Source: a virus. From it: 45,470 bases of DNA. The DNA lies in IMG/VR virus record IMGVR_UViG_3300047557_004089, positions 1 through 45,470 of that record; one strand, 5' to 3'. The translations under genes and the position numbers were made by a program. This document shows, piece by piece, positions 1-28,621 of this stretch; position 1 is the first letter of the stretch, and the number at the start of each line of letters is the position of its first letter. The notes under the pieces are model-generated. The model was not told the DNA's origin and did no database searches. It saw only the letters and a program-made list of their open reading frames with translations.

Positions 1-3000
1 TTCCTGAAGTTCCTGTTGTACCCGAGGTTCCCGAAGTTCCACTAGTTCCTGTAGTACCCGAAGAGCCACTCGTTCCTGATGAACCTGAAGTTCCACTTGT
101 ACCCGAAGAACCACTTGTTCCTGTGGTTCCACTTGTTCCCGATGTACCAGTTGTTCCGCTTGAACCTGAAGTACCAGAAGTGCCACTACTACCTGATGTT
201 CCGCTAGTACCTGTTGTACCGCTAGTTCCTGAAGTACCTGACGTTCCACTAGTACCCGTTGTACCCGAAGAACCACTTGTTCCTGAAGAACCACTGGTAC
301 CCGAGGTACCGCTAGTTCCTGAAGTTCCTGATGTGCCCGAAGTACCTGTTGTACCCGAGGTTCCCGACGTTCCGCTAGTTCCTGAAGAACCACTTGTCCC
401 TGAAGTCCCACTTGAACCTGAAGTTCCACTTGTTCCTGTTGTACCCGATGTTCCACTAGTACCCGTAGTTCCTGAAGAGCCACTTGTTCCCGAAGAACCT
501 GAAGTTCCACTTGTGCCTGTTGTTCCTGAAGTACCTGAAGTACCTGTGGTTCCTGACGTTCCACTTGAACCTGATGTACCACTAGTACCAGAAGTACCTG
601 TAGTTCCGCTTGTTCCTGATGTTCCACTAGTCCCTGTAGTACCTGATGTTCCACTTGTACCCGATGTTCCACTAGTACCCGTAGTTCCTGAAGAGCCACT
701 TGTTCCTGATGAACCTGAGGTTCCACTTGTACCGGTTGTTCCTGATGTACCTGATGTTCCTGTAGTTCCCGACGTACCACTTGAACCTGACGTTCCGCTA
801 GTACCAGAAGTACCGCTAGTTCCTGATGTTCCACTTGAACCTGATGTTCCACTAGTTCCTGTGGTACCACTTGTTCCACTAGTTCCTGTAGTCCCTGAAG
901 TACCACTCGAACCTGAAGTACCTGAAGTACCCGATGTTCCGGATGTTCCACTAGTGCCTGAAGTACCTGTTGTACCCGATGTTCCAGAACTACCTGATGT
1001 TCCGCTCGTACCACTCGAACCTGAAGTGCCCGAAGTCCCACTAGTTCCCGATGTTCCGGATGTTCCACTAGTGCCTGAAGTACCTGTTGTACCCGATGTT
1101 CCAGAACTACCTGATGTTCCGCTCGTACCACTTGAACCTGAAGTACCTGAAGTTCCACTAGTACCTGAAGTTCCACTTGTACCCGTTGTTCCTGAAGTTC
1201 CACTTGTACCCGTAGTACCCGAAGTTCCTGAAGTGCCTGATGTACCACTTGTACCTGAAGTACCTGTAGTGCCTGAGGTACCACTCGTTCCACTAGTTCC
1301 TGTCGTACCCGATGTTCCAGAACTACCTGATGTTCCACTTGTACCTGAAGTACCCGAGGTTCCACTAGTTCCAGTTGTACCCGAAGTACCACTCGTTCCT
1401 GATGAACCCGAAGTCCCACTCGTACCCGTTGTTCCTGAAGTACCACTAGTTCCTGAAGTACCACTAGTTCCTGAAGTTCCGCTCGTACCTGAAGTGCCTG
1501 ATGTACCACTAGTACCCGAAGTTCCTGAAGTTCCTGAAGTGCCACTGGTTCCTGATGAACCTGAAGTTCCACTTGTACCCGTTGTTCCTGAAGTACCACT
1601 AGTTCCTGAAGTACCTGTGGTACCAGAAGTGCCTGAAGTTCCTGATGTTCCTGAGGTACCACTAGTTCCTGATGTACCTGAAGTACCGCTTGTTCCTGTT
1701 GTACCCGAAGTTCCACTTGTTCCTGATGTACCTGTAGTACCTGAAGTTCCACTTGTACCTGATGTACCACTCGTACCTGAAGTTCCACTTGTACCTGATG
1801 TACCAGTTGTACCTGAAGTTCCACTCGTTCCTGTTGTACCTGAAGTACCGCTAGTTCCTGAACTACCAGATGTCCCACTTGTACCCGAAGTACCAGTAGT
1901 ACCACTAGTTCCACTTGTTCCTGTAGTACCGCTAGTTCCACTTGAACCTGATGTTCCACTAGTTCCTGTAGTTCCTGACGTACCACTTGTTCCTGAAGTT
2001 CCACTAGTACCTGTTGTACCCGAAGTACCTGATGTTCCACTTGTTCCTGTAGTACCGCTAGTTCCTGAGGTACCGCTAGTTCCGGTCGTACCTGATGTAC
2101 CACTTGTTCCTGAAGTTCCAGTTGTACCGGAAGTACCTGATGTACCAGACGACCCACTCGTTCCGCTTGTACCCGATGTGCCTGTTGTACCACTTGTTCC
2201 TGAAGTACCTGTTGTACCGCTAGTTCCTGAAGTACCCGAGGTTCCACTTGTACCCGATGTTCCATCAATACCACTCGTGCCAGATGTTCCTGAGGTTCCA
2301 CTTGTACCTGTTGTTCCTGAAGTCCCACTTGTACCACTTGTACCCGTAGTACCCGAAGTTCCTGAAGAGCCACTTGTTCCTGATGAACCTGAAGTTCCAC
2401 TTGTTCCTGAAGTACCCGAAGTACCTGATGTTCCGCTAGTTCCCGACGTACCTGAAGAGCCACTTGTTCCTGTTGTACCTGATGTACCACTAGTTCCCGA
2501 GGTACCACTTGTTCCTGTTGTACCTGAAGTTCCACTTGTACCCGTTGTACCTGAAGAGCCACTTGTTCCTGAAGTACCTGATGTACCATCTATACCACTT
2601 GTTCCACTTGAACCTGATGTTCCACTAGTTCCTGTAGTTCCTGATGTACCACTTGTACCTGAAGTACCCGTTGTGCCTGAAGTTCCACTAGTTCCTGTAG
2701 TTCCTGATGTACCACTCGTACCACTTGTTCCTGTTGTACCTGATGTACCTGAAGTTCCAGTTGTACCTGAAGTTCCACTTGTTCCTGATGTACCGGTTGT
2801 ACCTGAAGTTCCGCTTGTACCTGAAGTCCCAGTTGTACCTGAAGTTCCTGAAGAACCTGATGTACCACTAGTTCCTGTAGTACCACTCGTACCCGAAGTA
2901 CCACTTGTACCTGAGGTTCCACTCGTGCCTGTGGTGCCTGATGTACCGCTAGTTCCCGAAGTACCTGTTGTACCACTAGTTCCTGAAGTACCCGAGGTTC

Positions 3001-6000
3001 CACTTGTACCCGATGTTCCATCAATACCACTCGTGCCAGATGTACCTGAAGTTCCACTTGTACCTGATGTACCTGTTGTACCGCTAGTTCCTGAAGTACC
3101 TGAAGTTCCACTTGAACCAGATGTACCACTTGTTCCTGAGGTTCCTGTAGTGCCTGAGGTTCCACTTGTACCAGATGTACCACTTGTTCCTGAGGTTCCC
3201 GAGCTACCACTTGTACCTGATGTGCCTGAAGTACCACTTGAACCTGCAATATTTGCAGCTAAAGTTGTTACAATATTTGAGAGAGTTGAATTTCTCATCT
3301 CAATATTGAAGGAAGTATTGTTACCCGTAGTTGTTGCGTAAATACTAACTCTAATTCTTGAGTTGATTGACGCTAAAACATATGAAGGGACGTATTGACT
3401 ATAAATGTAGTTGTTCTGTGTTGTGGTTATAATAGTAGCAGATGCCGAAGTTCCCGATGCAATATTAGCAATCAGTGTTGTACCGTCTGATTGCATCTCA
3501 TCAATAGCAATCCAATATTTAAGGTCACCTGTACCAGCAAGTTTTCGAGCAAATAGGTTACTAATCCACAATCCAGGTATTATTGTCGTAGTATCCAACG
3601 CTGTTGCTGGAGATACAAATTGAACAATCTTAACCTCCCCGTCTGCAGGGTCGAAATTTGATGTCGTAATCGTTGTTTGTGTACCTGTATTCGGGAATAA
3701 TATCAAATCATCCGTAATCAAGGAAGCAATTGGTACTGTTTGGGTAGCTGTTGGTCCATCATAGTAGAAAACTAAACCACTTGATATACCACTGACACCT
3801 GACGTTCCTGACGTTCCGCTCGAACCACTAGTTCCTGAAGAACCCGAAGTACCTGATGAACCACTTGTCCCTGAAGAACCTGAAGTACCACTAGTTCCTG
3901 AAGTACCTGTTGTACCCGAAGTTCCTGAAGTACCTGACGTTCCAGTAGTCCCTGAGGTACCGCTAGTACCCGAAGTTCCACTAGTTCCTGTTGTACCTGA
4001 TGTACCACTTGTACCAGAAGTACCTGTTGTACCAGAAGTTCCACTTGTTCCTGAAGTACCACTTGTTCCTGAAGTACCACTAGTTCCTGAGGTACCGCTA
4101 GTACCTGAAGTACCACTAGTTCCTGTCGTTCCTGAAGTACCACTAGTTCCTGAGGTACCGCTAGTTCCTGTTGTACCTGAAGTTCCTGATGTTCCACTAG
4201 TGCCTGAGGTTCCTGAAGTTCCAGAAGTACCTGTCGTTCCAGAAGTACCACTAGTTCCACTTGTACCCGAAGTTCCACTTGAGCCTGAAGTACCACTTGT
4301 TCCTGATGTACCATCTATACCACTCGTTCCACTTGAACCTGACGTTCCACTTGTTCCCGTGGTACCTGAAGTTCCTGACGTACCACTTGTTCCTGTTGTT
4401 CCACTAGTACCTGAAGTTCCTGACGTACCACTTGTTCCTGTTGTTCCACTAGTACCTGAAGTTCCTGACGTACCACTTGTTCCTGTTGTTCCACTAGTAC
4501 CTGAGGTTCCTGTCGTACCTGATGTACCACTTGTTCCCGTTGTACCTGATGTTCCCGAAGTTCCTCTAGTACCAGTCGTTCCTGAAGTTCCACTTGTTCC
4601 TGTCGTACCTGACGTTCCTGAAGTACCTGATGTTCCTGAAGTACCATCGATTCCACTCGTGCCAGAAGTTCCACTCGTTCCTGTCGTACCTGAAGTACCT
4701 GAAGTTCCTGAAGTACCATCAATTCCACTTGTACCCGAAGTTCCACTAGTTCCTGTCGTACCGCTTGTACCTGAGGTTCCTGAAGTTCCGCTAGTACCAG
4801 TCGTTCCTGAAGTTCCACTTGTTCCTGTTGTACCTGAGGTTCCTGAAGTTCCACTTGTACCCGTAGTTCCTGAAGTCCCACTAGTTCCTGAAGTACCAGT
4901 CGTTCCTGAAGTTCCACTCGTTCCTGAAGTTCCTGTTGTACCTGAAGTACCACTAGTTCCTGATGTACCATCTATTCCACTAGTACCACTTGAACCCGAG
5001 GTTCCACTAGTACCACTCGTTCCTGAAGTTCCTGTTGTACCTGAAGTACCACTAGTTCCTGATGTACCATCTATTCCACTTGTACCACTTGAACCTGAAG
5101 TTCCACTAGTACCTGTTGTACCTGAAGTACCACTGGTTCCTGTTGTTCCCGAAGTTCCTGAAGTACCACTCGTTCCTGTTGTTCCTGACGTTCCTGACGT
5201 TCCTGTTGTGCCTGATGTTCCTGAAGTGCCACTACTTCCTGATGTTCCAGATGTACCACTTGTACCTGAAGTCCCATCAATTCCACTCGTACCGCTTGAA
5301 CCTGAAGTTCCACTAGTACCTGAAGTGCCCGTTGTTCCCGAAGTACCTGATGTACCTGTAGTTCCTGATGTACCGCTAGTTCCTGAGGTACCTGTAGTTC
5401 CCGAAGTACCACTTGTTCCTGAGGTTCCTGTTGTTCCTGAAGTTCCACTCGTACCGGATGTTCCTGTTGTGCCACTTGTTCCAGATGTGCCGGAAGTTCC
5501 ATCAACTCCACTTGTACCACTAGTTCCTGTAGTACCTGATGTACCACTAGTCCCTGAGGTGCCTGTAGTTCCTGAAGTACCTGATGTACCGGTGGTTCCA
5601 CTCGTACCTGAAGTTCCACTTGTTCCTGTTGTTCCACTTGAACCTGATGTTCCTGTAGTACCTGATGTACCACTTGTGCCGGTTGTACCTGATGTACCAC
5701 TCGTTCCTGTTGTGCCCGAAGTTCCTGAAGTGCCCGATGTACCACTAGTTCCTGAAGTTCCCGATGTACCACTAGTTCCTGTAGTACCTGATGTCCCACT
5801 TGTACCGGACGTACCAGTTGTCCCTGATGTTCCACTTGTTCCTGTACTTCCTGAAGTACCTGATGTTCCGTTTACACCACTTAATCCTGAAGTGCCAGCA
5901 CTTCCACTTGTACCTGATGTTCCCGATGTTCCATCAATTCCGCTAGTACCTGAAGTTCCCGATGTACCGGATGTACCTGACGTACCAGAAGTTCCCGATG

Positions 6001-8692
6001 TACCGTCAATTCCACTTGTTCCTGATGTTCCTGTCGTACCCGAAGTACCTGATGTTCCACTTGTTCCTGTTGTACCCGAAGTTCCACTCGTTCCAGTTGT
6101 TCCTGAAGTTCCTGAGGTTCCCGAAGTCCCCGATGTTCCATCAACACCACTTGTTCCACTAGTTCCTGTAGTACCTGAAGTACCGGATGTTCCACTTGTT
6201 CCTGTTGTACCTGATGTCCCACTAGTACCTGAAGTTCCAGTTGTTCCTGATGTTCCTGAAGTACCTGTTGTTCCTGATGTTCCACTTGTTCCTGAAGTAC
6301 CATCAATACCACTCGTACCCGAAGTACCACTAGTTCCTGAAGTACCACTTGTACCTGAGGTTCCTGAAGTGCCATCAATACCACTTGTTCCTGATGTACC
6401 TGTTGTTCCGCTTGTACCGGATGTCCCTGAAGTACCATCAACACCACTCGTTCCTGAGGTACCTGTTGTACCGCTCGTTCCTGAGGTTCCTGTTGTACCG
6501 CTTGTTCCTGAGGTTCCTGAGGTTCCTGTCGTTCCTGAAGTTCCACTTGTTCCTGTTGTACCTGAGGTACCTGAAGTTCCGTCTACACCACTTGTTCCTG
6601 AAGTACCACTAGTTCCTGTCGTGCCACTTGTACCTGATGTGCCTGAAGTACCATCAACACCGCTTGTTCCTGAAGTTCCTGTTGTACCTGAAGTCCCACT
6701 TGTTCCTGAAGTACCTGAAGTACCACTTGTTCCCGTAGTACCTGAAGTTCCACTTGTACCTGAAGTTCCGCTTGTTCCCGTAGTACCACTAGTACCTGAA
6801 GTTCCTGAAGTACCCGAGGTACCACTTGTTCCTGATGTTCCACTAATTCCGCTTGTTCCTGATGTACCATCCAATCCTGATGTTCCAGATGTACCCGAAG
6901 TTCCGGTAGTACCTGAAGTACCACTTGTTCCTGAAGTACCCGAAGTTCCTGTTGTACCGCTTGTTCCTGAAGTTCCGTTGACTCCTGATGAACCACTTGT
7001 GCCTGAAGTTCCGTCAATTCCACTAGTTCCACTTGTTCCTGAAGTACCCGAGGTTCCTGTTGTACCGCTTGTTCCTGAAGTTCCATTGATTCCTGAAGTG
7101 CCACTCGTACCTGAAGTTCCATTGATACCTGAACTACCACTTGTCCCTGAAGTACCATCGATACCTGAAGTACCACTCGTTCCTGATGTACCGCTTGTTC
7201 CAGATGTACCGGCAGTTCCGTCAACTCCACTTAAACCTGAAGAACCACTTGTCCCTGAGGTACCTGTTGTACCTGATGAACCACTAGTACCTGAAGAACC
7301 ATCAATTCCGGAAGTACCATCAACACCTGAACTACCACTTGTTCCTGATGTACCATCTACTCCACTAGTACCCGAGGAACCATCAATTCCACTTGTTCCT
7401 GAGGTGCCATCTAATCCTGATGTACCCGAAGTACCATCGATTCCTGAAGTACCTGATGTTCCATCTATTCCGCTAGTACCCGATGTTCCGTCCACTCCAC
7501 TAGTACCTGAAGTACCATTAGTCCCCGAAATGCCTGAACTACCACTTGTTCCCGAAGTACCATCCAATCCTGATGTACCTGAAGTACCATTGATTCCTGA
7601 AGTACCTGAGCTACCATCAATTCCGCTAGTCCCACTTGAGCCTGAGGTCCCATCAAGTCCACTTGTACCACTTGTTCCATCAAGTCCGCTTGTTCCTGAA
7701 GTTCCATTCAATCCACTTGAACCTGAAGTTCCACTTGTACCACTTATTCCTGAAGTCCCGCTTGAACCTGATGTACCATTTATTCCTGAAGAACCTGAGG
7801 TTCCAGAAGTACCTGAGCTTGTTGCAGTACCTGTAATTGTTACAGTTATATTTCCACTACCATTGTTTGTTACTGAAGCCCCTACGAAAGTCATTCCAGT
7901 AACCGCAGAAACTGTTGTTACTCCATCACCTACTTGTAAGTCCGCACCACTAAATCCAGCTATAGAAATGGATGTACCATCACTACTGTTGAGCGTTAAG
8001 ATTTTTGTACCCGAATCGAAAGTACCACCTGTGACTGGTGCTGTAAATCCTGTGATTGTTATAGTACCTCCTGTACTATTTTCTAATTCGACATAGTTGG
8101 CATTTGGTGTTGTCGCAGAAAAATATGTTCCACCTGTGATTTGAACGTCAGTGGTATAAACTTTTCTCCAACGAGCAGTTGTTGCAGTCGCACCGGCTAT
8201 ACCTTCAATAGTTGAACCTGTCCAAGCATTAATAAAAGTTTGTCCCGCAGCAGAACGATTGTTAACGGCAGTAGAGTACTCTGTAACGGTAATTGCCGAA
8301 GCACCGGTTAAACCTGTTACATTACCAAACAGAGTACTATAATTGTCAATATGGTATTGATAAACTTGGTCAGTTTCATAAACGTAAACCTGCATTCCAA
8401 GTCTCCTACGTCCTGAAGATATATTATCAGAATTAAGTTGGATAATATCAGGAGAAAACGCTGAACCCGTCCCTTTAGTGAAAGCGATGGGTATGGTATT
8501 ACCCGAATTTTGAATCAAAGTTGGATAAGTCGCAGCTGTTAATACAAGCTCCAAATCTGAGAGGTTGTAAACTTCCATATAACCCCCCGTTTGTAAAACA
8601 GAGAAATTAGTGCCAAAAACTGAGGTAGAAGCTACCGATTCTGGACCTGATTGCTGTGATGAACTTATAGGGTTCTTATAGAGAGAAGACAT
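1..8692 (-). CDS. Giant Gly-X-Y (collagen-like, Gly-Thr-Ser) tail fibre protein, C-terminus outside window
   Basis: The reading frame starts at ATG 8692 and stays open to the left edge, about 2897 codons without a stop, so the C-terminus is not seen. Residues 1-294 are a non-repetitive domain beginning MSSLYKNPISSS, probably the virion-attachment part. Residues about 295-1637 are roughly 447 consecutive Gly-X-Y triplets, almost all G-T-S, G-T-T or G-S-S with scattered G-I-D, G-V-D, G-L-N and G-I-N. Residues about 1638-1814 (3250-3780) are a second globular segment. About 360 more triplets follow to the window edge. Strict Gly every third residue is the collagen signature, but proline is almost absent, so triple-helix formation is inferred. 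It is the last gene visible in the tail block, which fits a long host-contact fibre. The repeat is also open in other frames; the Gly-X-Y frame is chosen because it alone joins the globular domains and start codon. Confidence 0.85.
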   Translation of the reverse strand, partial: MSSLYKNPISSSQQSGPESVASTSVFGTNFSVLQTGGYMEVYNLSDLELVLTAATYPTLIQNSGNTIPIAFTKGTGSAFSPDIIQLNSDNISSGRRRLGMQVYVYETDQVYQYHIDNYSTLFGNVTGLTGASAITVTEYSTAVNNRSAAGQTFINAWTGSTIEGIAGATATTARWRKVYTTDVQITGGTYFSATTPNANYVELENSTGGTITITGFTAPVTGGTFDSGTKILTLNSSDGTSISIAGFSGADLQVGDGVTTVSAVTGMTFVGASVTNNGSGNITVTITGTATSSGTSGTSGSSGINGTSGSSGTSGISGTSGTSGSSGLNGTSGTSGLDGTSGTSGLDGTSGSSGTSGIDGSSGTSGINGTSGTSGLDGTSGTSGSSGISGTNGTSGTSGVDGTSGTSGIDGTSGTSGIDGTSGTSGLDGTSGTSGIDGSSGTSGVDGTSGTSGSSGVDGTSGIDGSSGTSGSSGTTGTSGTSGSSGLSGVDGTAGTSGTSGTSGTSGTSGIDGTSGTSGSSGINGTSGTSGTSGINGTSGTSGTTGTSGTSGTSGTSGIDGTSGTSGSSGVNGTSGTSGTTGTSGTSGTSGTSGTTGTSGTSGTSGLDGTSGTSGISGTSGTSGTSGTSGTSGTSGTTGTSGTSGTSGTSGTTGTSGTSGTSGTSGTSGTTGTSGTSGVDGTSGTSGTSGTTGTSGTSGTSGVDGTSGTSGTTGTSGTSGTTGTSGTSGTSGTTGTSGTSGTTGTSGTSGVDGTSGTSGTSGTTGTSGTSGIDGTSGTSGTSGTSGTSGTSGTSGIDGTSGTSGTSGTTGTSGTSGTTGTSGTSGTSGTTGTSGTSGTSGTTGTSGTSGVDGTSGTSGTSGTSGTTGTSGTSGTTGTSGTSGTSGTTGTSGTSGIDGTSGTSGTSGTSGTSGTSGTSGIDGTSGTSGTSGSAGTSGLSGVNGTSGTSGSTGTSGTSGTTGTSGTSGTSGTTGTSGTSGTSGTSGTSGTSGTSGTTGTSGTSGTTGTSGTSGTTGTSGSSGTTGTSGTSGTSGTTGTSGTSGTTGTSGTSGTSGTTGTSGTSGVDGTSGTSGTSGTTGTSGTSGTSGTTGTSGTSGTSGTTGTSGTSGTSGTTGTSGTSGTTGTSGTSGTSGSSGTSGIDGTSGTSGTSGTSGSSGTSGTSGTTGTSGTSGTTGTSGTSGTSGTTGTSGTSGTTGTSGTSGSSGTSGIDGTSGTSGTSGTTGTSGTSGTSGTSGSSGTSGIDGTSGTSGTSGTTGTSGTSGTSGTTGTSGTSGTSGTTGTSGTSGTSGTTGTSGTSGTTGTSGTSGTSGTSGTTGTSGTSGTSGIDGTSGTSGTSGTTGTSGTSGTSGIDGTSGTSGTSGTSGTTGTSGTSGTTGTRGTSGTSGTTGTSGTSGTTGTSGTSGTTGTSGTSGTSGTSGTTGTSGTSGTSGTSGTTGTSGTSGTSGTTGTSGTSGSSGTSGIDGTSGTSGTSGSSGTSGTSGTSGTSGTTGTSGTSGTSGTSGTSGTSGTTGTSGTSGTSGTSGTTGTSGTSGTSGTSGTSGTSGTSGTSGTSGTSGTTGTSGTSGTSGTTGTSGTSGTSGTSGTTGTSGTSGTSGTTGTSGTSGTSGSSGTSGSSGTSGSSGTSGSSGTSGTSGVSGISSGLVFYYDGPTATQTVPIASLITDDLILFPNTGTQTTITTSNFDPADGEVKIVQFVSPATALDTTTIIPGLWISNLFARKLAGTGDLKYWIAIDEMQSDGTTLIANIASGTSASATIITTTQNNYIYSQYVPSYVLASINSRIRVSIYATTTGNNTSFNIEMRNSTLSNIVTTLAANIAGSSGTSGTSGTSGSSGTSGTSGTSGTSGTSGTTGTSGTSGTSGSSGTSGTSGTSGTTGTSGTSGTSGTSGTSGIDGTSGTSGTSGTSGTSGTTGTSGTSGTSGTTGTSGTSGTSGTSGTSGTTGTSGTSGSSGTSGTTGTSGTSGTSGTTGTSGTSGTSGTTGTSGTSGTTGTSGTSGTSGTTGTSGTSGTTGTSGTSGTSGTTGTSGTSGSSGTSGIDGTSGTSGTSGSSGTTGTSGTSGTTGTSGTSGTSGTSGTTGTSGSSGTSGTSGTSGTSGTSGTSGTSGSSGTSGSSGTSGTTGTSGTSGTSGTTGTSGTSGTSGTSGIDGTSGTSGTSGTSGTSGTTGTSGTSGTTGTSGTSGTSGSSGTSGTSGTTGTSGTSGTSGTTGTSGTSGTSGTTGTSGTSGTSGTTGTSGTSGTSGTSGTTGTSGTSGSSGTSGTTGTSGTSGTTGTSGTSGTSGSSGTSGTSGTTGTSGTSGTTGTSGTSGTSGTSGTSGTSGTSGTTGTSGTSGTSGTTGTSGTSGTSGTSGTSGTSGTSGTSGTTGTSGTSGTSGTTGTSGTSGSSGTSGTSGTSGTSGTSGTSGTSGTSGTSGTSGTSGTSGTSGTTGTSGTSGSSGTSGTSGTTGTSGTSGTSGTSGTSGSSGTSGTTGTSGTSGTSGTTGTSGTSGTSGTSGTSGTTGTSGTSGTTGTSGTSGTSGTSGTSGSSGTSGTSGSSGTSGTTGTSGTSGTSGTSGTSGTSGTSGSSGTSGTSGSSGTSGTTGTSGTSGTSGTSGTSGTSGSSGTSGTTGTSGTSGTTGTSGTSGSSGTSGTSGTSGTSGTSGSSGTSGTTGTSGTSGTTGTSGTSGSSGTSGSSGTTGTSGTSGTSGTSGTTGTSGTSGTSGTTGTSGTSGTSGSSGTSGTTGTSGTSGTTGTSGTSGSSGTSGSSGTTGTSGTSGTTGTSGTSGSSGTSGTSGSSGTSGTSGTSGTTGTSGTSGTSGTSGTSGTSGSSGTSGSSGTTGTSGTSGTSGTSGTTGTSGTSGSSGTSGTSGSSGTTGTSGTSGTTGTSGSSGTSGTSGSSGTSGSSGTTGTSGTSGTSGTTGTSG
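930..1132 (-). repeat. Tandem duplication, 117-bp period, inside collagen-like region
   Basis: Bases 930-1015 and 1047-1132 are identical over 86 bases and are offset by 117 bases, which is exactly 13 Gly-X-Y triplets. The flanking triplets differ by synonymous changes, so this looks like a recent in-frame duplication. Confidence 0.85.
2220..3043 (-). repeat. Dispersed 68-bp direct repeat inside collagen-like region
   Basis: Bases 2220-2287 and 2976-3043 are identical over 68 bases and are offset by 756 bases (84 triplets). Each copy contains a G-I-D triplet that interrupts the G-T-S run. Such exact copies stand out because most triplets here are synonymously scrambled. Confidence 0.8.
4365..4499 (-). 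repeat. Perfect triple tandem repeat, 45-bp unit
   Basis: Three identical 45-base units lie at 4365-4409, 4410-4454 and 4455-4499, each encoding five Gly-X-Y triplets. The next unit begins the same way but diverges after a few bases. This is the cleanest minisatellite in the window and implies recent slippage or unequal recombination. Confidence 0.9.
4914..5080 (-). repeat. Tandem duplication, 99-bp period, inside collagen-like region
   Basis: Bases 4914-4981 and 5013-5080 are identical over 68 bases with a 99-base offset (11 triplets). The frame is preserved. Each copy ends with a G-I-D triplet. Confidence 0.85.
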
Positions 8693-8718: not shown

Positions 8719-8726
8719 TATTTATG
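8719..8726 (-). promoter_or_regulatory. Possible T4-type late promoter (CATAAATA) before the giant fibre gene
   Basis: On the minus strand the sequence CATAAATA lies 26 bases before ATG 8692 and overlaps the stop codon of the preceding gene. T4-family late promoters consist mainly of TATAAATA near -10, so this is a near match in the right orientation. The region is A/T-rich and chance occurrence is possible. Confidence 0.35.
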
Positions 8727-9720
8727 ATTTGCTTTCACCTTTGATAAATATTGATGCACCCAAAGGAAGGTTAGCAATTGCAGGTAAATTAACGAGTTCT
8801 GTCATCCAAAGAACTCGATAGGTTCCGGTAGGAATTGCACATCCCGATGGGACTGTTACGTTTACCGAAGAGTTAATAATATCAGGAATTCCACCATTAG
8901 ATATGTCAGAAGTACAAGGAGTACCTGTACCCACGTCCAAAGTCATATTATTAAGAGTTCCACCAACACCCGCAAGTGGTAACCAAACTGAGTAAACGTA
9001 TTGTATATTAGGATTGACGGATGAAGTAGTAATTTCTACCGTACCAAAAGTATATTGAGATTGGTTACATCCGAATGAATCGGTTCCTGAACCTGAAGCT
9101 TGACGAATTCCACCCTTGAGAGTACCAACGTCTGATATGAAGTTTCCTGAACCACCAGCCCAATCAGTATACTGAACGTAAATGTTAAGGTCACTAGCGT
9201 AGTTTGGTCCCGCAGGATAACTTCCTGAGTTAGCATATCCGTAATAGTTGACAGCACCGTTGGTGAACATGTAGTTACCCAAGTTAGCCTGAGATGTTGC
9301 ATCCTGAGGTTCAGGGAAAATGTATGCCGAATAAACAGGACCTGGTGAAGATGAAGGTGTTGGAGTAGGTGTAACAGTTCCTGTTGGTGTTACACTTGGA
9401 GAAACTCCTGGAGTCGGTGTTATTGTAGGTGTTATTGATGGTGTTGGTGTAGGTGTTGCTGTTGGAGTTGGTGTAGGTGTATTACTTGGTGCAACACCAA
9501 AACAAATGGTAACCCCATCAATCATTTCATTTCTTGTTACCCCCACGTATACTGCGGTTTCCCCTGTAGAACCCGTATAAACGTCAAAAGGACCTATAGC
9601 GTCCGATTCTGCAGGGAGTCTGACTATAAAACACTGATATCCCGTAACCTCTATCTGTTGCTCGACAGAAGTATCACATCCCGTGGCTGTATTAACTACA
9701 ATAATTGACTCTAACGACAT
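8722..9720 (-). CDS. Tail fibre or appendage protein with Thr-Pro linker
   Basis: 332 residues. Residues 1-80 form a small domain starting [14 protein letters not shown]. Residues about 81-127 are a low-complexity Thr/Pro/Ser linker (runs of [10 protein letters not shown] type). Residues about 128-332 are a second domain rich in Gly, Asn, Tyr and aromatic beta-type sequence with several cysteines. I do not recognise either domain. Two domains joined by an extended TP linker are typical of phage appendages and surface proteins. It lies between the Cys-rich 122-residue gene and the giant collagen-like fibre, so a role as fibre connector or receptor-binding partner is inferred. The leader has no Shine-Dalgarno sequence. 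A similar TP linker occurs in the 1201-residue and 2398-residue proteins. Confidence 0.75.
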
Positions 9721-10152: not shown

Positions 10153-13100
10153 TCAACAATTAGGGTCGATTAGGGTATATTCTGTTACAAATCCTGAACC
10201 GTCAATTACCACCCAATAGTTTACACTACTTGGTCCTGTAACTGTCGTGAAATCTCCCACGATGTAATTACCCGCAAACATCGGTCCATTACCAGGAGTG
10301 TTCGAAAAACCTACATAGGTTCCAACATTCAGAGGATTCGCAAAATTACTTCCGTACGCTGTGCTTGTTTGGTCTGAACCATTCCACCAATCACATATCA
10401 AAGTCTTAGCCGCCGCGGCGTTTGCTATACTGTTGGTTGTTATTGTTGGTAAGAGGTCGTAGGACACTTGATAAATAAAGGAGGTAGACAAATTTAATCC
10501 AGGTGTCATACTAGGTGTTGGTGTCAAGGTTTTGGTGGGAGTTACTGTGGGAGTGACTGAGGTCGAAGGTGTAACTGATGGTGTAACTGATTTTGTTGGC
10601 GTAACACTTGGGGTCAAAGAAACACTTGGAGTTATACTTGGGGTAATAGTTGGTGTTGCAGTTGGGCTTGGAGTTGGTGGAACCGTAGATTCACATTCAA
10701 TGTCATAAACAATTACCAATTCAACAATAATTTGTTGGTCAATAATTGAACTGCTTGGGTCGGCTTTGATTGTAATCTGATTATTCAATGGGTCAATAAC
10801 CACATCTACAATACCAACAATACTTTCCAACATATTTTCGATTGTGGTGTACCAAAGGTTGTCACTTGGTACATCAATCAAACTTGTTCCATTGTAGAAT
10901 GAGTTTGTTAACACTGTACCTTGTGGTTGAACCTGTACTTTAGCGATGTATTCAGCATTCAAAAGAACACAACCTGTAAATCCTGAAGTCAAATCCGCAA
11001 ACCCGTCGTTTAGAATTTGAATAATTCCACATTTTGTTGGTGAAACAATTACAAACTCATCACTACCCATTGTGTAAGTCTGGAAAGAAACATATGTTTG
11101 TGTACATTCAATAGTTGTCAGTGCACCAAATGAACAATTATTAGCATCTTGAATAACTAAACTGTAGGTTCCCCCTGTTAAATTATTCACCGTTATTTGT
11201 TGCGGATTAGATGGGATATTTGGTGACCAATTAAACGTAAATGGCGGAGTTCCTTGAGAAATCAATGCAGTAATACTACCCTGATTTCCTGTTCCACAAG
11301 AAGTAGAATATAATGAGAACTGAACAGGGTTACTTCCGAACATTGTGAACGGAACTTCAATGGTACACCCTGTGTTGTCTGTAACACCAATTAAATGTTG
11401 TCCATTTGAAACGTTGTTGTAACTTACAACCGTAAGGCTCGAATTGATAATTGTTTGAACACCATCAATACTATATGTCAATGGTAATTCGTAACCACCT
11501 GATACGGTAATCTCAATAGTTCCATTCGACAATCCACAAGTCGAGGGGATAATAGAATAAGTGACCGCAAACTTATCTTCTGAAACTAAAGTAACTTCTT
11601 GAGTGTAGACACATCCTGTGGAATCTTGAACAAACACCGAGTAAGTTCCAGGTCCAAGGTTTGAAAATACCTCTACCGTTTGATTTGTTGTAATTGCCGT
11701 AGAATCTCCGTCGGGATTTACTAAAGTTATGATGTAAGGAGAAACTCCTCCCACCAAAGACACAGTTATTTGTCCGTCATTTGAATTACAAGTTGAATTC
11801 TGTGTTGAAACCAAAACAGAGGAAACTCCACCCGCGCTTTGAAGTGTAGTACCAACATAGATTTGACAAAGTCCTGCGTCGGTAACAACAAAGTTATAGG
11901 TTCCGTTTGATAAGTTATTAATTGTAAACGAAGTGGCGTAAGTGATTAAAACTTCACCTGTCGAAGCCGAATAATAATAAGGTGCCGTTCCATCAACAAT
12001 ATTCAATGTGAGAGAACCATTCGCATCGTAACATGTAGGATTAACGGCTGTGAATGAACCAAAAGCCAAAGGTTCAATATCTACAACACTTCCTTGTTTT
12101 GTTGTTGAACATCCACCCGAATCCGTTACTTGAACAGAGTAAACCCCTGCGGTGAGTCCTGTAATAGAACTCGTGGTTTTACCATTACTCCACAGATAAG
12201 TATATGGGGCATTTCCAGTTAAACCTGTAACATATATTTTACCAATATCATTATTTCCATTACATGCAGAATTTGGTACAACATACAAACCAAAATCTAA
12301 TGGATTTGAATCTTGGATAATAAAGGTTGAACTTGTACCTTGACCCCCACTTGTATCAGTGGCAATAATATAGTAGACTCCCGCACTTAAATTTGAGAAG
12401 ATACCGTAAGGTTGAAGTGATGTGACTGTACTAACTAACGTGTCCGTTGAGTCGTAAAGGTCATAAGTAACGTAGGATGTTGTTGAAGTTGTTGTTGCAG
12501 TAACAGCTCCGTTGTCCAAACCACAAGTTGTTGGGTCTACATTAACAATTGAAACACAAATACAACTTCCAACAGTTACGTTTATAAAAAACTGACTGTT
12601 GGTTGGCACTGCAGAGTCATTGGCTCTAACAAGATAAGTTCCTGGAAGTAAGTTTGTTTTGTAGTTACCTAAACCTAAATTAGGACTGTACCAATCAAAC
12701 GTATAAGGTGGAACACCTCCACTAGCGACAATTTCAACCGTACCAAATCCTGTTTCACACGCTCCCGTTATTTCTAACGTGTAATCAAAAACATTTCCAT
12801 TACCAAAAGAAGATGACGATGGTGTTAATGTTGGTGTTGGTGTACTACTGGGAGAACCTCCAGGTGTTGGAGTTGGAGTTTTTGTGAGAGTTGGTGTTGG
12901 TGTTAAACTTGTTGACGGTGTAGGAGTTGGAGTAGGAGTCTTTGTAGGAGTCGGTGAAGGACAAACCGCAGTCGGATTGAACGCTAAACAATCTCCACAA
13001 TCAAAATAAGTACCATTAATTGTATCAGTTCCAGAGTTCCATACATACGATGAATAAGGACCTGGTAAAGACGCCACCGCTTCAGTACATCCCGTAAAAT

Positions 13101-13758
13101 TAAGGCTCGGAATTTCTAAAAAATAGAAATTACCAGGACCGACAAACAAGTCAATTCCTGATATAACTTCGTATTGAATTGCTGGTGTACAACAACCACT
13201 AAAGTAATAAACATATCCAGGTGTCACCGTGGGTGTGGGTGTTGGTGATGGTGAAGGTTCCGTACAAGGGAATGCCGCTGTACAACCTCCACATCCATCA
13301 TAACCAGCAATTAAGTTTACACCCCCAGAACCTCCGTAAGACTGAAGAGTCCAACATTTATCATTGTATCTGAAAGAAACTGTACCTGGTGTGTACGTAC
13401 TTGGGACACTGGCTTGAAGGGTATCTGTACCATCACAGCAATTAACTAAAATTGCGTTTGCAAAACTAGATACAATTGGGCAACTACCCCCATAATCCAA
13501 GGTACATTGAACGCAATCAGCAGTACCATTTGTTATTGTTTGAAAATTAGTGATGGCATAATTGTATACAGTCCCCACAGGTGATGTGACCGCAGAAAAA
13601 CAAACGTTTCCATTTACAGGGTCAAGCGAAACATAGGTTGGACCAACCGCAAAATTAGAATTAGGAACTCCGTCTATGGTTGGGTTACATACCGAAAACG
13701 ACTTTGTTGGTGGAGTTTCACTACAACAAACTAAGTACTTATTATTACTACAAGGCAT
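10153..13758 (-). CDS. Large tail/appendage protein with SprB-type repeats and Thr-Pro linkers
   Basis: 1201 residues. Residues 1-165 are Cys-rich (MPCSNNKYLVCCS start). A TP linker follows near 167-178, another Cys-rich segment to about 264, and a second TP linker at about 264-313. Residues about 326-890 contain about seven repeats that match the SprB repeat style: an opening T-C-x-x-x-x-G motif, a central GG-x-P-Y-x-x-x-W or similar, then a G-x-Y-x-x-x-V-x-D-x-x-G-C ending (clearest: LTAGVYSVQVTDSGGC). A domain at about 890-1020 and a third TP linker (about 1026-1085) precede the C-terminal domain. SprB is the mobile surface adhesin of gliding Flavobacteriia. In a phage tail gene cluster these Ig-like repeats most likely form an extended adhesive arm. 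TGATG overlap couples it to the upstream 991-residue gene. Confidence 0.8.
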   Translation of the reverse strand: MPCSNNKYLVCCSETPPTKSFSVCNPTIDGVPNSNFAVGPTYVSLDPVNGNVCFSAVTSPVGTVYNYAITNFQTITNGTADCVQCTLDYGGSCPIVSSFANAILVNCCDGTDTLQASVPSTYTPGTVSFRYNDKCWTLQSYGGSGGVNLIAGYDGCGGCTAAFPCTEPSPSPTPTPTVTPGYVYYFSGCCTPAIQYEVISGIDLFVGPGNFYFLEIPSLNFTGCTEAVASLPGPYSSYVWNSGTDTINGTYFDCGDCLAFNPTAVCPSPTPTKTPTPTPTPSTSLTPTPTLTKTPTPTPGGSPSSTPTPTLTPSSSSFGNGNVFDYTLEITGACETGFGTVEIVASGGVPPYTFDWYSPNLGLGNYKTNLLPGTYLVRANDSAVPTNSQFFINVTVGSCICVSIVNVDPTTCGLDNGAVTATTTSTTSYVTYDLYDSTDTLVSTVTSLQPYGIFSNLSAGVYYIIATDTSGGQGTSSTFIIQDSNPLDFGLYVVPNSACNGNNDIGKIYVTGLTGNAPYTYLWSNGKTTSSITGLTAGVYSVQVTDSGGCSTTKQGSVVDIEPLAFGSFTAVNPTCYDANGSLTLNIVDGTAPYYYSASTGEVLITYATSFTINNLSNGTYNFVVTDAGLCQIYVGTTLQSAGGVSSVLVSTQNSTCNSNDGQITVSLVGGVSPYIITLVNPDGDSTAITTNQTVEVFSNLGPGTYSVFVQDSTGCVYTQEVTLVSEDKFAVTYSIIPSTCGLSNGTIEITVSGGYELPLTYSIDGVQTIINSSLTVVSYNNVSNGQHLIGVTDNTGCTIEVPFTMFGSNPVQFSLYSTSCGTGNQGSITALISQGTPPFTFNWSPNIPSNPQQITVNNLTGGTYSLVIQDANNCSFGALTTIECTQTYVSFQTYTMGSDEFVIVSPTKCGIIQILNDGFADLTSGFTGCVLLNAEYIAKVQVQPQGTVLTNSFYNGTSLIDVPSDNLWYTTIENMLESIVGIVDVVIDPLNNQITIKADPSSSIIDQQIIVELVIVYDIECESTVPPTPSPTATPTITPSITPSVSLTPSVTPTKSVTPSVTPSTSVTPTVTPTKTLTPTPSMTPGLNLSTSFIYQVSYDLLPTITTNSIANAAAAKTLICDWWNGSDQTSTAYGSNFANPLNVGTYVGFSNTPGNGPMFAGNYIVGDFTTVTGPSSVNYWVVIDGSGFVTEYTLIDPNC

Positions 13759-26241: not shown

Positions 26242-28080
26242 TTAAGAAAAAGAAACATTTTGGAAGTTCTTGACCTTAACCTTGATGTCCTTTTGAGGAA
26301 ATCTTACTTGATATGCTTGGTTTGGTTGTGCAAATAAAGTATCATCTACAGGTTGAATAATTCTTAGTTCCGGGTCAGAATAACTCATCGAAGTTTGAGC
26401 TGAAGAATATTGTCCCCCAACTTTATTTTCGATTACTAAATCCGCAACGGTAATTACACCTGTTTGTTGTTGAACAATTGTTCTAAGTTCTGATAAATAA
26501 ACATTTTGTCCAAGTTGTCTAAACTGAGGGTCCATGTAAGCTGAGATTCTATTAACAATCTCCGAAATAATTTGACCTGAATTTTGTGTTGCATCTAACA
26601 CCACAGAAATTTCGATTCCTAAATCAAGAACTTCAGCAGATGTAACCTGAATATAGTCATTCATCATTCTATAGTTGGACAAATAATTTGCAACATTTTG
26701 TCTCAATGTATTCGAAACAATTGGTGTTAATTTTCCTGAGGTATCGTATGACAATAAACTGATAACAATCTTGTTATTATTTTCGGTTATAGCCACCTTG
26801 GCAGGTGCACCAAATTGTGCTGGCATTGTTCTCAATAAAGAGTCATAATCATTAACTGTTACCGCTCTTTTTTGAGCTGCAAAGTTAAACGTTACATAAT
26901 TTCTAACTTCCTCAACTGATGGTGGATTTGCACCTCCAATAGCCGCAGTAACGTTATTACACCTCAAAGATTGAATAACACTATTGTTAATATTCTGAGA
27001 TGGTCCATTAACAAAGAAAGTCACGGTACCAACTTGGTTGATAACATTTGTTCCTAAGTTTGTTGCCAATCCACCACCAACTCTATATTGAACAAACAAA
27101 GTAGTGTTTGGAATAAGAGTTGAACCTAAAGAAAAATTGTTTTGGATGGTCTGTAATGTCACAGGTAATCCCAAAGTGGTAAAGGCATTCAATTGGTCTT
27201 GAGCAGATGTTGAACCACCTCCGAATGTCATTTTCATGAAACCTTCGGGGGTAAACTCTGTAATGAATCTGTTGTTCGTTTGAATGTATCTTCCAACCTT
27301 TACACCTGGTTGGTCTGAAACTTTTGTTGGGTCTTCTATGAATATCCTATCTTCGGCTAACGCATCAACTTCATACCATCTATTCTCAACACCCAAGAAT
27401 TCTGCAGCAGTTGGTACGTTGGTATAGTTAGTTCCGTTCTTAAGAAGAACACTCGTAACACCAAGAACATTCTTATCAGGTAAGAAAAGTTCAAAGAATG
27501 GTTTTACGTCACTGGCATTGATTACTCTTTTGAAAACTTTTGTTAGACCATTAACAACTTGTTCTCTTTTAGTGATGGTATAGTTAACAAGGTTTCCATT
27601 TCCATCAAAGTTTGGAATCTTTAATCTATTGGGAAAACCTTGTGAATTATACGGTGATGCAAAATCCACATCATATTGAGTTTCAAACACAATACCCGCA
27701 CCAAAGACTTGAGACCCTCTTGTTAATGTTCCCAAATATCTTTCGTCCTCCTTGTCTCCAAATGCAGGAACAGTAATTGAGAAGTCTACCAAAGATACTG
27801 AAGGTCTTTGACCTGGTATCTTTAATCCATAAGTTCTTGCTATATTATAGATTGACGACCTTTGTTGTGCATATTGAAGAACCGTTTCTTGGATACTTCT
27901 ATCAATATGGTAGTGAAGGTTGTCGGCGACAGCGGCGTTCAAATCCAAAAATACTGAGAATACCGAAGCATCATTGAAATCCTGAATCAATTCAGGATAA
28001 TATGTTCTTACGTAGTTTTGGAGTTCAATCCTAATACTTTCGTAATCTCGTACTGTATAGGATATTTTGTTGTTTGCCAT
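26242..28080 (-). CDS. 6: Baseplate wedge protein gp6-like (baseplate J family)
   Basis: 612 residues, close to the 660 of T4 gp6. The N-terminus contains YTVRDYESIRIELQNYVR and then a D-F-N-D-A-S-x-x-S-V-F-L-D-L-N-A-A-V-A-D-N-L-x-Y-H-I-D-R segment typical of gp6/baseplate J-like proteins. The C-terminal third has the R-A-V-T-V-N-D-Y-x-S-L-L-R motif followed by a repeat-like fold region. gp6 forms the ring of dimers that joins the wedges in the baseplate and drives its hexagon-to-star change. It starts 5 bases after the gp25 stop, matching the wedge-gene cluster of other myoviruses. The leader is AT-rich with no Shine-Dalgarno. Confidence 0.88.
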   Translation of the reverse strand: MANNKISYTVRDYESIRIELQNYVRTYYPELIQDFNDASVFSVFLDLNAAVADNLHYHIDRSIQETVLQYAQQRSSIYNIARTYGLKIPGQRPSVSLVDFSITVPAFGDKEDERYLGTLTRGSQVFGAGIVFETQYDVDFASPYNSQGFPNRLKIPNFDGNGNLVNYTITKREQVVNGLTKVFKRVINASDVKPFFELFLPDKNVLGVTSVLLKNGTNYTNVPTAAEFLGVENRWYEVDALAEDRIFIEDPTKVSDQPGVKVGRYIQTNNRFITEFTPEGFMKMTFGGGSTSAQDQLNAFTTLGLPVTLQTIQNNFSLGSTLIPNTTLFVQYRVGGGLATNLGTNVINQVGTVTFFVNGPSQNINNSVIQSLRCNNVTAAIGGANPPSVEEVRNYVTFNFAAQKRAVTVNDYDSLLRTMPAQFGAPAKVAITENNNKIVISLLSYDTSGKLTPIVSNTLRQNVANYLSNYRMMNDYIQVTSAEVLDLGIEISVVLDATQNSGQIISEIVNRISAYMDPQFRQLGQNVYLSELRTIVQQQTGVITVADLVIENKVGGQYSSAQTSMSYSDPELRIIQPVDDTLFAQPNQAYQVRFPQKDIKVKVKNFQNVSFS

Positions 28081-28085
28081 ATATG

Positions 28086-28556
28086 TTAAATATTGAGGAT
28101 GACAAAATCACTCTGAGCAAAAGCCAAGTTGTCAACTGAAAAATCTATTCTTACTTTAGCGGTATATTCAGATGTTCCTTTACCAGGTACCCTATACGGA
28201 GTATTTGCATCTTGAGCGAGTTGTGCTCTCCCTTGAGCATTTTCTACCTCCACAGAAGGGTCTGCTGGCTCGATGGTTATGTTATTAATCAACAAATTGG
28301 GAATATACTTAGATACCGAATCTCGAATATCCGCTTCAATTGCATTGAAGGTGAGTCCATCATAAGGTTCAAATAAAAATTCATATATCCGAGTTCCAAA
28401 ATCAGGGAGAAAATATCTTGAACCTTTTCTTGTTAACAACAAATGAATCAAATCACTTTTGATTTGTGCATATTGTGTTTCAGTCAAAAGTAAGAAATCC
28501 CCTTGAGTTGAATCTTGGAAGGGAAATGCTAAACCATATGTAATTCCATCTGCCAT
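28086..28556 (-). CDS. 25: Baseplate wedge protein gp25-like
   Basis: 156 residues from ATG 28556 (MADGITYGLAFPFQDS). An in-frame ATG at 28610 would add 18 hydrophobic residues but lies inside the terminator hairpin, so it is rejected. The core LLLTRKGSRYFLPDFGTRIY, followed by E-F-L-F-E-P, matches the GPW/gp25 family motif (R-G-x-R-x-x-x-P-x-F-G-T). gp25 is a conserved wedge protein near the sheath start in T4 and in type VI secretion/contractile injection systems. It is followed after 5 bases by gp6. The upstream sequence contains a terminator (28600-28621) and a TATTTAT motif, so a transcription unit for baseplate genes probably starts here. Confidence 0.92.
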   Translation of the reverse strand: MADGITYGLAFPFQDSTQGDFLLLTETQYAQIKSDLIHLLLTRKGSRYFLPDFGTRIYEFLFEPYDGLTFNAIEADIRDSVSKYIPNLLINNITIEPADPSVEVENAQGRAQLAQDANTPYRVPGKGTSEYTAKVRIDFSVDNLAFAQSDFVILNI

Positions 28557-28561
28557 ATCAG

Positions 28562-28568
28562 ATAAATA
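28562..28568 (-). promoter_or_regulatory. TATTTAT motif upstream of gp25-like gene
   Basis: TATTTAT reads on the minus strand 5 bases before ATG 28556 and downstream of the strong terminator at 28600-28621. This placement suggests a start of a new transcript for the baseplate genes. The very short distance to ATG would give an almost leaderless mRNA if this were a -10 element. Confidence 0.3.
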
Positions 28569-28599
28569 TACCCTGAAACTTTTTATAATAAAACAAAAA

Positions 28600-28621
28600 A
28601 CCCAACACATATGTGTCGGGT
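28600..28621 (-). terminator. Rho-independent terminator after nrdA
   Basis: On the minus strand the arms ACCCGACACAT and ATGTGTTGGGT form an 11-bp stem followed directly by a run of Ts. One pair is G-U in minus-strand RNA but would be a C/A mismatch in plus-strand RNA, which supports minus-strand use. It separates the ribonucleotide reductase genes from the baseplate genes. Confidence 0.9.

Follow-up and report, generated by a model that had tools for sequence, protein, structure and literature searches.

We analysed one virus record from IMG/VR (IMGVR_UViG_3300047557_004089), whose full 45,470 bases we call the window, and the giant collagen-like tail fibre gene that lies at its edge (Table 1). 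All window genes discussed are on the minus strand. A previous reading of the sequence alone had described about 807 Gly-X-Y triplets in two blocks, within a protein of at least 2897 residues whose C terminus is absent. The open reading frame (ORF) does run open into the contig edge, and our recount gives 808 triplets in two unbroken blocks (448 and 360), split by a 179-residue domain that had been overlooked. The fibre matches Pfam Collagen (PF01391), its sole Pfam match, with 1016 bits against a cut-off of 27.2, and has the unbroken glycine at every third residue that marks this family (808 of 808 positions, though all four glycine codons occur).

Three triplets, Gly-Thr-Ser (GTS, 576), Gly-Thr-Thr (GTT, 119), and Gly-Ser-Ser (GSS, 60), account for 755 of the 808 (93%), in keeping with the sequence-only reading; the next commonest class is Gly-(Ile/Val/Leu)-Asp (34). 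The X position holds Thr 698 times, Ser 62 times, and Ile, Val, or Leu 48 times, and the Y position holds Ser 643 times, Thr 120 times, Asp 34 times, and Asn 8 times, placing 643 of 705 serines at Y. Both positions together contain one Arg, 34 Asp, and no proline at all (0 of 1616), where almost none had been claimed. The X and Y positions of this fibre are not Pro-rich or charged in the way typical of known bacterial and phage collagens. That phage collagens usually rely on proline or charge, as had been stated, agrees with a pattern-drawn sample in which 25 of the 118 viral Gly-X-Y arrays listed have under 2% proline, 9 of these also having more than 60% Thr, Ser, and Asn. The longest array among the 118 listed has 646 triplets; the window array is among the longest met here, and L425 and L424 carry 882 and 1015 triplets in one gene. 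A GTS x6 pattern gave at least 120 stretches, and proline-free arrays are a recognisable minority class, not a singularity. In bacterial genomes, the pattern GGNWSNWSN x8 gave at least 119 stretches, few of them long Thr/Ser arrays.

Table 1. Features of the fibre locus in the window
Feature	Coordinates	Strand	Remarks
Giant collagen-like tail fibre gene	2..8692	minus	ATG start, no stop; 2897+ aa; 3' end beyond contig edge
N-terminal domain, aa 1-292	7816..8692	minus	likely attachment end; common to 60 IMG/VR loci
GXY (Gly-X-Y) block 1, aa 294-1637	3782..7813	minus	448 triplets, proline-free
Interposed all-beta domain, aa 1638-1816	3245..3781	minus	179 aa, non-collagenous, between blocks
GXY block 2, aa 1817-2896	5..3244	minus	at least 360 triplets; reaches contig edge
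332-aa protein	8722..9720	minus	Thr-Pro-rich linker; homologue directly upstream of fibre in L425, L432, L302, L005, and many N-terminal relatives
1201-aa fibre-like protein	10153..13758	minus	4 SprB repeats, Thr-Pro linkers; homologues upstream of fibre in L431 and many N-terminal relatives
Baseplate wedge (gp6-like) and gp25-like genes	26242..28610	minus	put fibre at end of myovirus baseplate operon

The IMG/VR contig L002, which may share a sample with the window, agrees with it at every aligned base (4127 of 4127), 361 triplets among them, and differs by a single 9-base indel. Closed genes built in the same way occur on other contigs. On these grounds we judged an assembly artefact unlikely. 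A single 117-base indel (13 triplets) distinguishes L056 from L057, which are equal at 7724 of 7731 other positions; both pairs thus indicate a polymorphic array length with an almost constant sequence. No glycine break occurs in the window or in 8 of the 11 relatives examined; L003 has one, L302 two, and L425 18. In L425 (1233-11264), the breaks replace Gly by Ala without loss of register, within the 3' portion of the array and in a repeated SSATSG/TSATSG context. One-base neighbours of the X and Y codons would encode Pro in 12.5% and Ala in 15.7% of cases (together 28%), against 0 Pro and 2 Ala observed among 1616, counts that are not independent trials because the repeats share a duplication history. 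The absence of proline is therefore not a lack of mutational access.

Lying at the end of a baseplate cluster and combining a common N-terminal domain with a variable distal part, as myovirus tail fibres do, the gene product is almost certainly a distal tail fibre. Among the 60 loci that share the N-terminal domain, 29 show GXY arrays and 31 show none (8 of the 31 are cut by a contig edge); proline is absent from all 29 visible arrays except L012 and L055-L058, which have at most 6 such residues. This domain had no INPHARED match at E 0.01 and no convincing PDB match, and a Foldseek search of its model, which is poor (pLDDT 51.7), returned nothing at E <= 0.001. The middle domain (aa 1638-1816) is 77-78% identical in L302 and L303. 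Its low-confidence model is a beta sandwich (pLDDT 58.2), for which Foldseek places VP2, TNF-like, and lectin jelly rolls nearest and VIA other sandwiches; this hints at a trimeric jelly roll but goes no further. The middle and C-terminal modules are common to GXY and non-GXY fibres. The tail fibre is thus built of modules, of which the collagen-like shaft appears to be an exchangeable one.

Relatives indicate what may lie beyond the contig edge. L425 is a complete relative, with the 332-aa homologue and a 3343-aa fibre made of the 882 triplets, a beta module, and a tip domain; L432 has the same layout, tip domain included. Their N-terminal domains are 61% (L425) and 62% (L432) identical to that of the window. 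In L431, the upstream genes match those of the window (991-aa and 1201-aa homologues) and precede a shorter GTS fibre with an L425-type tip, and L303 shares both the window's middle domain and this tip. L005 and L037 finish in a different domain, and since L005 also has upstream genes like those of the window, the window fibre may have either kind of tip. Phage records with the L425-type tip number 45, mainly of cyanophages and also of Flavobacterium phage immuto, whose annotated tail fiber-like protein matches the L425 tip at 56.9%. These comparisons suggest a tip domain beyond the window edge, possibly followed by a convergent glycosyltransferase of the type described below.

In the syntenic relatives L425, L432, and L431, a convergent gene begins 26-50 bases past the fibre stop. 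These three, L303, and L034 encode a multi-domain glycosyltransferase of 974-1451 aa directly after the fibre and convergent to it, with a GT4 domain fused to an Aah/TibC-like part that is C-terminal or in the middle. The fibre of L425 is followed by a convergent FkbM gene and the 1451-aa enzyme, and the enzymes of L425, L432, and L303 are accompanied by an FkbM methyltransferase or a methyltransferase/GT34 gene. TIGR04414 is the NCBI equivalog model for the protein O-heptosyltransferase Aah/TibC. Near proline-free arrays, 14 of the 18 glycosyltransferases tested exceed its 200-bit cut-off (205-288 bits), and those of L442, L443, L445, and L424 fall short of it. Compared with the PDB, the L432 enzyme domain had TibC as its sole match at E <= 0.01 (1.6e-51); with a profile, the next family reached 5e-4. 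For TibC, D110 is described as the catalytic base, T226, K230, W305, and R286 as sugar contacts, and cysteines 339, 342, 358, and 370 as an iron finger; the Aah/TibC enzymes are described as O-heptosylating an adhesin protein, on serine and not threonine, along a beta-helix (PMC4358343). Aligned to PDB 4rap, L432 keeps D110, T226, K230, W305, and all four cysteines, and these columns are invariant in two sets of 12 and 8 phage proteins. Since R286 is not kept in L432, we call the relatives' enzyme TibC-like. It matches only 4 of 50,697 INPHARED records.

Two bait searches connect this enzyme to the array. With the tip domain as bait, the best 80 of 290 relatives were kept and 58 analysed, 2 of which were set aside as fragments. 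A glycosyltransferase homologue lies within 9 kb downstream in all 14 loci with a proline-free array and in none of the 42 without one, as detected by phmmer with queries taken from array neighbours. The homologue is convergent and starts 26-50 bases past the stop in 10 of the 14 (in L435, L440, and L441 after one FkbM gene), and in L439 it lies 4.0 kb downstream of the array fibre. A bait-free Pfam count over 39 control loci found a glycosyltransferase family in 1 of 135 downstream ORFs (<=900 aa), a count that shows 25 families and may hide rarer ones, and in 0 of 29 control downstream ORFs of at least 600 aa; in 11 array loci, 12 of the 39 ORFs have PF00534. Fisher's test of 11/11 against 1/39 gives 3e-10, the true significance being lower because the loci are related. 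With the enzyme as bait, the best 80 of 419 relatives yielded 50 non-duplicate viral loci, and 27 of these have a proline-free Thr/Ser array within the flank (up to 10 kb), the nearest always convergent and on the enzyme's 3' side (27 of 27).

Other candidate enzymes were considered. Bait-free, the first two downstream ORFs include a glycosyltransferase in 4 of 45 GTS loci (L118, L089, L131, and L227) and 3 of 52 Pro-type loci (L271, L290, and L182), no difference, as judged from sequence starts and, for some, from Pfam or NCBIfam. We rejected GT25, the animal collagen galactosyltransferase family: it is real near the fibres of L427, L131, and L430, yet over cut-off in 7 of 50 records, including L128 and L089, which were added after having been noticed. 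One Pfam scan of fibre neighbours showed no partner combining PLOD-GT and a 2OG-Fe(II) oxygenase; in another, it appeared only beside the Pro-type array of L290, and the 2OG-Fe(II) domain PF13640 occurs in 1 of 39 ORFs of the array loci, without PLOD. In L290 (2798-4621, minus), GT25, PLOD-GT, and 2OG-Fe(II) oxygenase domains are combined in one protein of 607 aa, encoded beside a Gly-Pro-Thr-type array, an arrangement resembling a collagen hydroxylase/glycosyltransferase pair. PF11397 GlcNAc-transferase genes occur in 11 of 50 family records (L027, L042, L052, L034, L041, and six more), 9 of which have non-GXY fibres, and in 0 of 14 control genomes.

The sequence-only reading had left three options for the shaft: a proline-free triple helix, glycosylation of Thr and Ser, or another Gly-rich helix. 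A collagen-like shaft is likely, and glycosylation gains independent support from the convergent Aah/TibC-like gene of some relatives. Taken as a whole, the idea of a long collagen-like tether whose Y-position serines are O-glycosylated by a phage TibC-like enzyme seems to us about as probable as its negation. The N-terminal domain would link the fibre to the baseplate, and two or more Gly-Thr-Ser shafts, with beta domains between them, would form a very long, thin trimeric tether carrying a host-binding C-terminal tip. The collagen helix rises 0.286 nm per residue, which would give a tether of about 0.69 micrometre (808 x 3 x 0.286 nm). With proline absent and charge almost so, little else would hold a helix, and O-glycosylation of its serines would make the shaft stable and soluble; collagen sugars also sit at Y. 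The sugar would be attached in the host cytoplasm by the phage enzyme (GT4 plus Aah/TibC-like) encoded past the fibre, which for the window would place the gene beyond the contig edge. The fuller version, a proline-free "glyco-collagen" of 0.5-0.8 micrometre in which a phage Aah/TibC-type enzyme stabilises the helix by linking heptoses or similar sugars to serines in their hundreds, with heptose-nucleotide synthesis of their own in some lineages, we put slightly below an even chance. For relatives that have the enzyme, TibC-like O-glycosylation is the best-supported way in which the shaft might work.

Genes resembling the HldE kinase, HldE adenylyltransferase, and HldD epimerase face a TibC-like enzyme in L561 (8150-10695), L549 (8147-10395), and L584 (11597-13854). 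They fall below equivalog cut-offs, the epimerase scored in L561 only, and these loci have no visible array.

Several results count against the glycosylated tether. The search for O-glycosyltransferases that the sequence-only reading had proposed found TibC-like genes beside relatives' fibres, yet PF00535, PF00534, PF11397, PF01755, and TIGR04414 had no match in the window or in L002 and L003, contigs that end inside the array; if the gene lies past the edge, this must be so. The enzyme is also lacking beside other complete fibres: L005, L010, L037, L038, L056, and L057 have none adjacent in the 2.1-6.6 kb downstream covered. Among complete fibres found with the N-terminal bait, only L034 (= L033) adjoins it, and adding L425 and L432 makes 3 of 9 distinct ones. 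L005 has window-like upstream genes yet no enzyme in the covered sequence, and since the non-GXY loci L019-L024 share that gene order too, we rejected upstream order as a predictor of the enzyme. L442, L443, and L445 have non-TibC glycosyltransferases on the same strand, 3.5-6.7 kb off. The loci of the enzyme tests are related and not independent, 23 of the 50 enzyme loci show no array (some owing to short flanks), and TIGR04414 occurs in only 2 of 50 family records, both with arrays. General glycosyltransferase families do not separate proline-free from Pro-type arrays. PF00535 occurs in 8 of 50 and 15 of 50 records, respectively, and PF00534 in 12 and 6 (of 50 each); a plain enrichment of glycosyltransferases by proline-free arrays is thus unsupported by the first and weakly supported by the second, and glycosyltransferases are equally common with non-GXY fibres. 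The association appears only with the TibC-like enzyme. The sugar contact R286 of TibC is Thr in L432, and the donor may therefore differ. The known TibC acceptor is described as a serine on a beta-helix, unlike a Gly-X-Y array (PMC4358343). Finally, a Pro-rich GPI/GPQ array adjoins a TibC-like glycosyltransferase (206.5 bits) in L271.

The strongest competing explanation, which we consider unlikely though it deserves weight, is that the neighbouring glycosyltransferases serve to change host surface glycans, to hypermodify DNA, or to glycosylate the Thr-Pro-linker proteins or the beta and tip domains. Phage glycosyltransferases are usually explained in such ways in the accounts consulted (PMC12619734, PMC10202952), related phages with non-GXY fibres carry PF00535 and PF11397 (9 of 20 each), and the enzyme tracks tip type as well as the array. 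TIGR04414 itself, however, was found in none of the 20 non-GXY family records searched, the 42 control loci have no homologue downstream, the enzyme is convergent to the array in every one of the 27 cases, and the characterised Aah/TibC enzymes are described as acting on an adhesin protein (PMC4358343).

A bare, unglycosylated triple helix, for which length, hydration of Thr and Ser hydroxyls, and trimerising beta domains would suffice at low environmental temperature, has perhaps one chance in a few. It would fit the strict glycine and the asymmetry of the window array (Ile, Val, and Leu only at X, Asp and Asn only at Y), as well as the several complete relatives without a TibC-like neighbour. 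It would leave that neighbour unexplained in the other relatives, and host-guest data rate X-position Thr and Y-position Ser as unfavourable to collagen. The low-Pro bacterial collagen Scl2.28 is reported to fold (35.6 C; PMC8968730), as is the phage collagen EPclA without glycosylation (PMC3368898), but these depend on charge or proline, which are nearly absent here. We consider it improbable that there is no triple helix, the array forming instead a polyglycine-II/PPII bundle or an extended, glycosylated mucin-like brush: the lack of proline, the 18 in-register breaks tolerated by L425, and a 9-12 residue supra-period of GTT, with none 1-2 triplets apart (about 17.4 expected), would suit it, against which stand the unbroken glycine of the window and of 8 of 11 relatives and a supra-period that may merely mirror 27- and 36-base duplication units.

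The glycosylated tether would have precedents in part. The Aah and TibC genes are paired with their adhesin genes, like the fibre and enzyme genes here. The phage enzymes differ in being fused to GT4 and other domains, in convergent gene order, and in the loss of R286 noted for L432. As described, the AIDA-I/Aah and TibA/TibC pairs (BAHT system) likewise join a large, Ser/Thr-rich repetitive adhesin to a protein O-glycosyltransferase of the same equivalog family, on an autotransporter beta-helix instead of the proposed phage Gly-X-Y array (PMC4358343). The enzyme scores as that family, and the tether would work like AIDA-I/Aah; the switch of substrate to a Gly-X-Y array would be the new claim. 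In open-licence literature, at the level of titles and abstract openings, we noticed no proline-free GTS phage fibre and no phage Aah/TibC. BclA has Gly-Pro-Thr, and neither BclA nor the mimivirus collagens are known to be proline-free. Both BclA spore filaments and mimivirus collagens are described as glycosylated collagen-like surface proteins (PMC8968730, PMC4691112), and mimivirus is reported to encode its own collagen-modifying enzyme, which makes and glucosylates hydroxylysine (PMC4691112). EPclA and EPclB, collagen-like tail fibres of E. coli prophages, are described as modular too, with a Gly-X-Y shaft, trimerising end domains, and attachment and binding ends, but have Pro at nearly half of X positions and charged X and Y residues, and recombinant EPclA is reported as unglycosylated (PMC3368898). 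The window fibre, with its 0 Pro and 1 Arg, has much longer arrays than these, and its end domains are different.

If the glycosylated tether is real, sugar would replace proline and hydroxyproline as the stabiliser of a collagen-like fibre, giving a testable answer to how bacteria and phages without prolyl hydroxylase make collagen. Phages would own a dedicated virion protein-glycosylation pair like AIDA-I/Aah, and part of the unexplained glycosyltransferases of aquatic phages would have a function. A tether several times the length of a virion's tail would suggest a mechanism of host reach, and the fibre would be a genetically encodable, length-variable material.

The upstream genes bear on the host. 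The window 332-aa protein is 40% identical to its L425 homologue over 210 aa. The SprB repeats of the 1201-aa protein, a domain that takes its name from a gliding-motility adhesin, are a lead to Bacteroidota. The baseplate wedge protein matches 6 phage records, 4 of them Flavobacterium phage immuto (26.8%). The window phage is probably a large myovirus with a Bacteroidota host.

The arrays also have fine structure. GTT triplets are never spaced 1 or 2 triplets apart (0 and 0, about 17.4 expected each) and peak at 3-4, the supra-period given above; triplets with a non-Ser Y are spaced 1 or 2 apart only 2 and 1 times (34 expected). Neighbouring GTS triplets alternate synonymous codons at lag 1 (Ser AGY/TCN, Gly GGT/GGA) in both window blocks (3782-7813 and 5-3244, minus) and in most family arrays. 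Between GTS-GTS neighbours, the Ser class changes at a frequency of 0.70, where 0.48 is expected and a codon-to-codon chain predicts only 0.48, and Gly codon identity between neighbouring triplets is 0.79 of expected across the fibre family. At lag 2 there was no pooled Gly or Ser effect, though single blocks vary. L425 and L303 also show serine alternation, whereas L424 and L428 do not; nor do the GTS arrays that other phages carry (0.467 against 0.473). Selection against slippage, tRNA alternation, or an ancestral 18-base unit would explain it alike, and we rejected it as proof of anti-slippage selection, since the ancestral unit would also yield it. Exact repeats of 18-54 bases in the window far exceed codon-shuffled controls, and the arrays therefore also grow by duplication.

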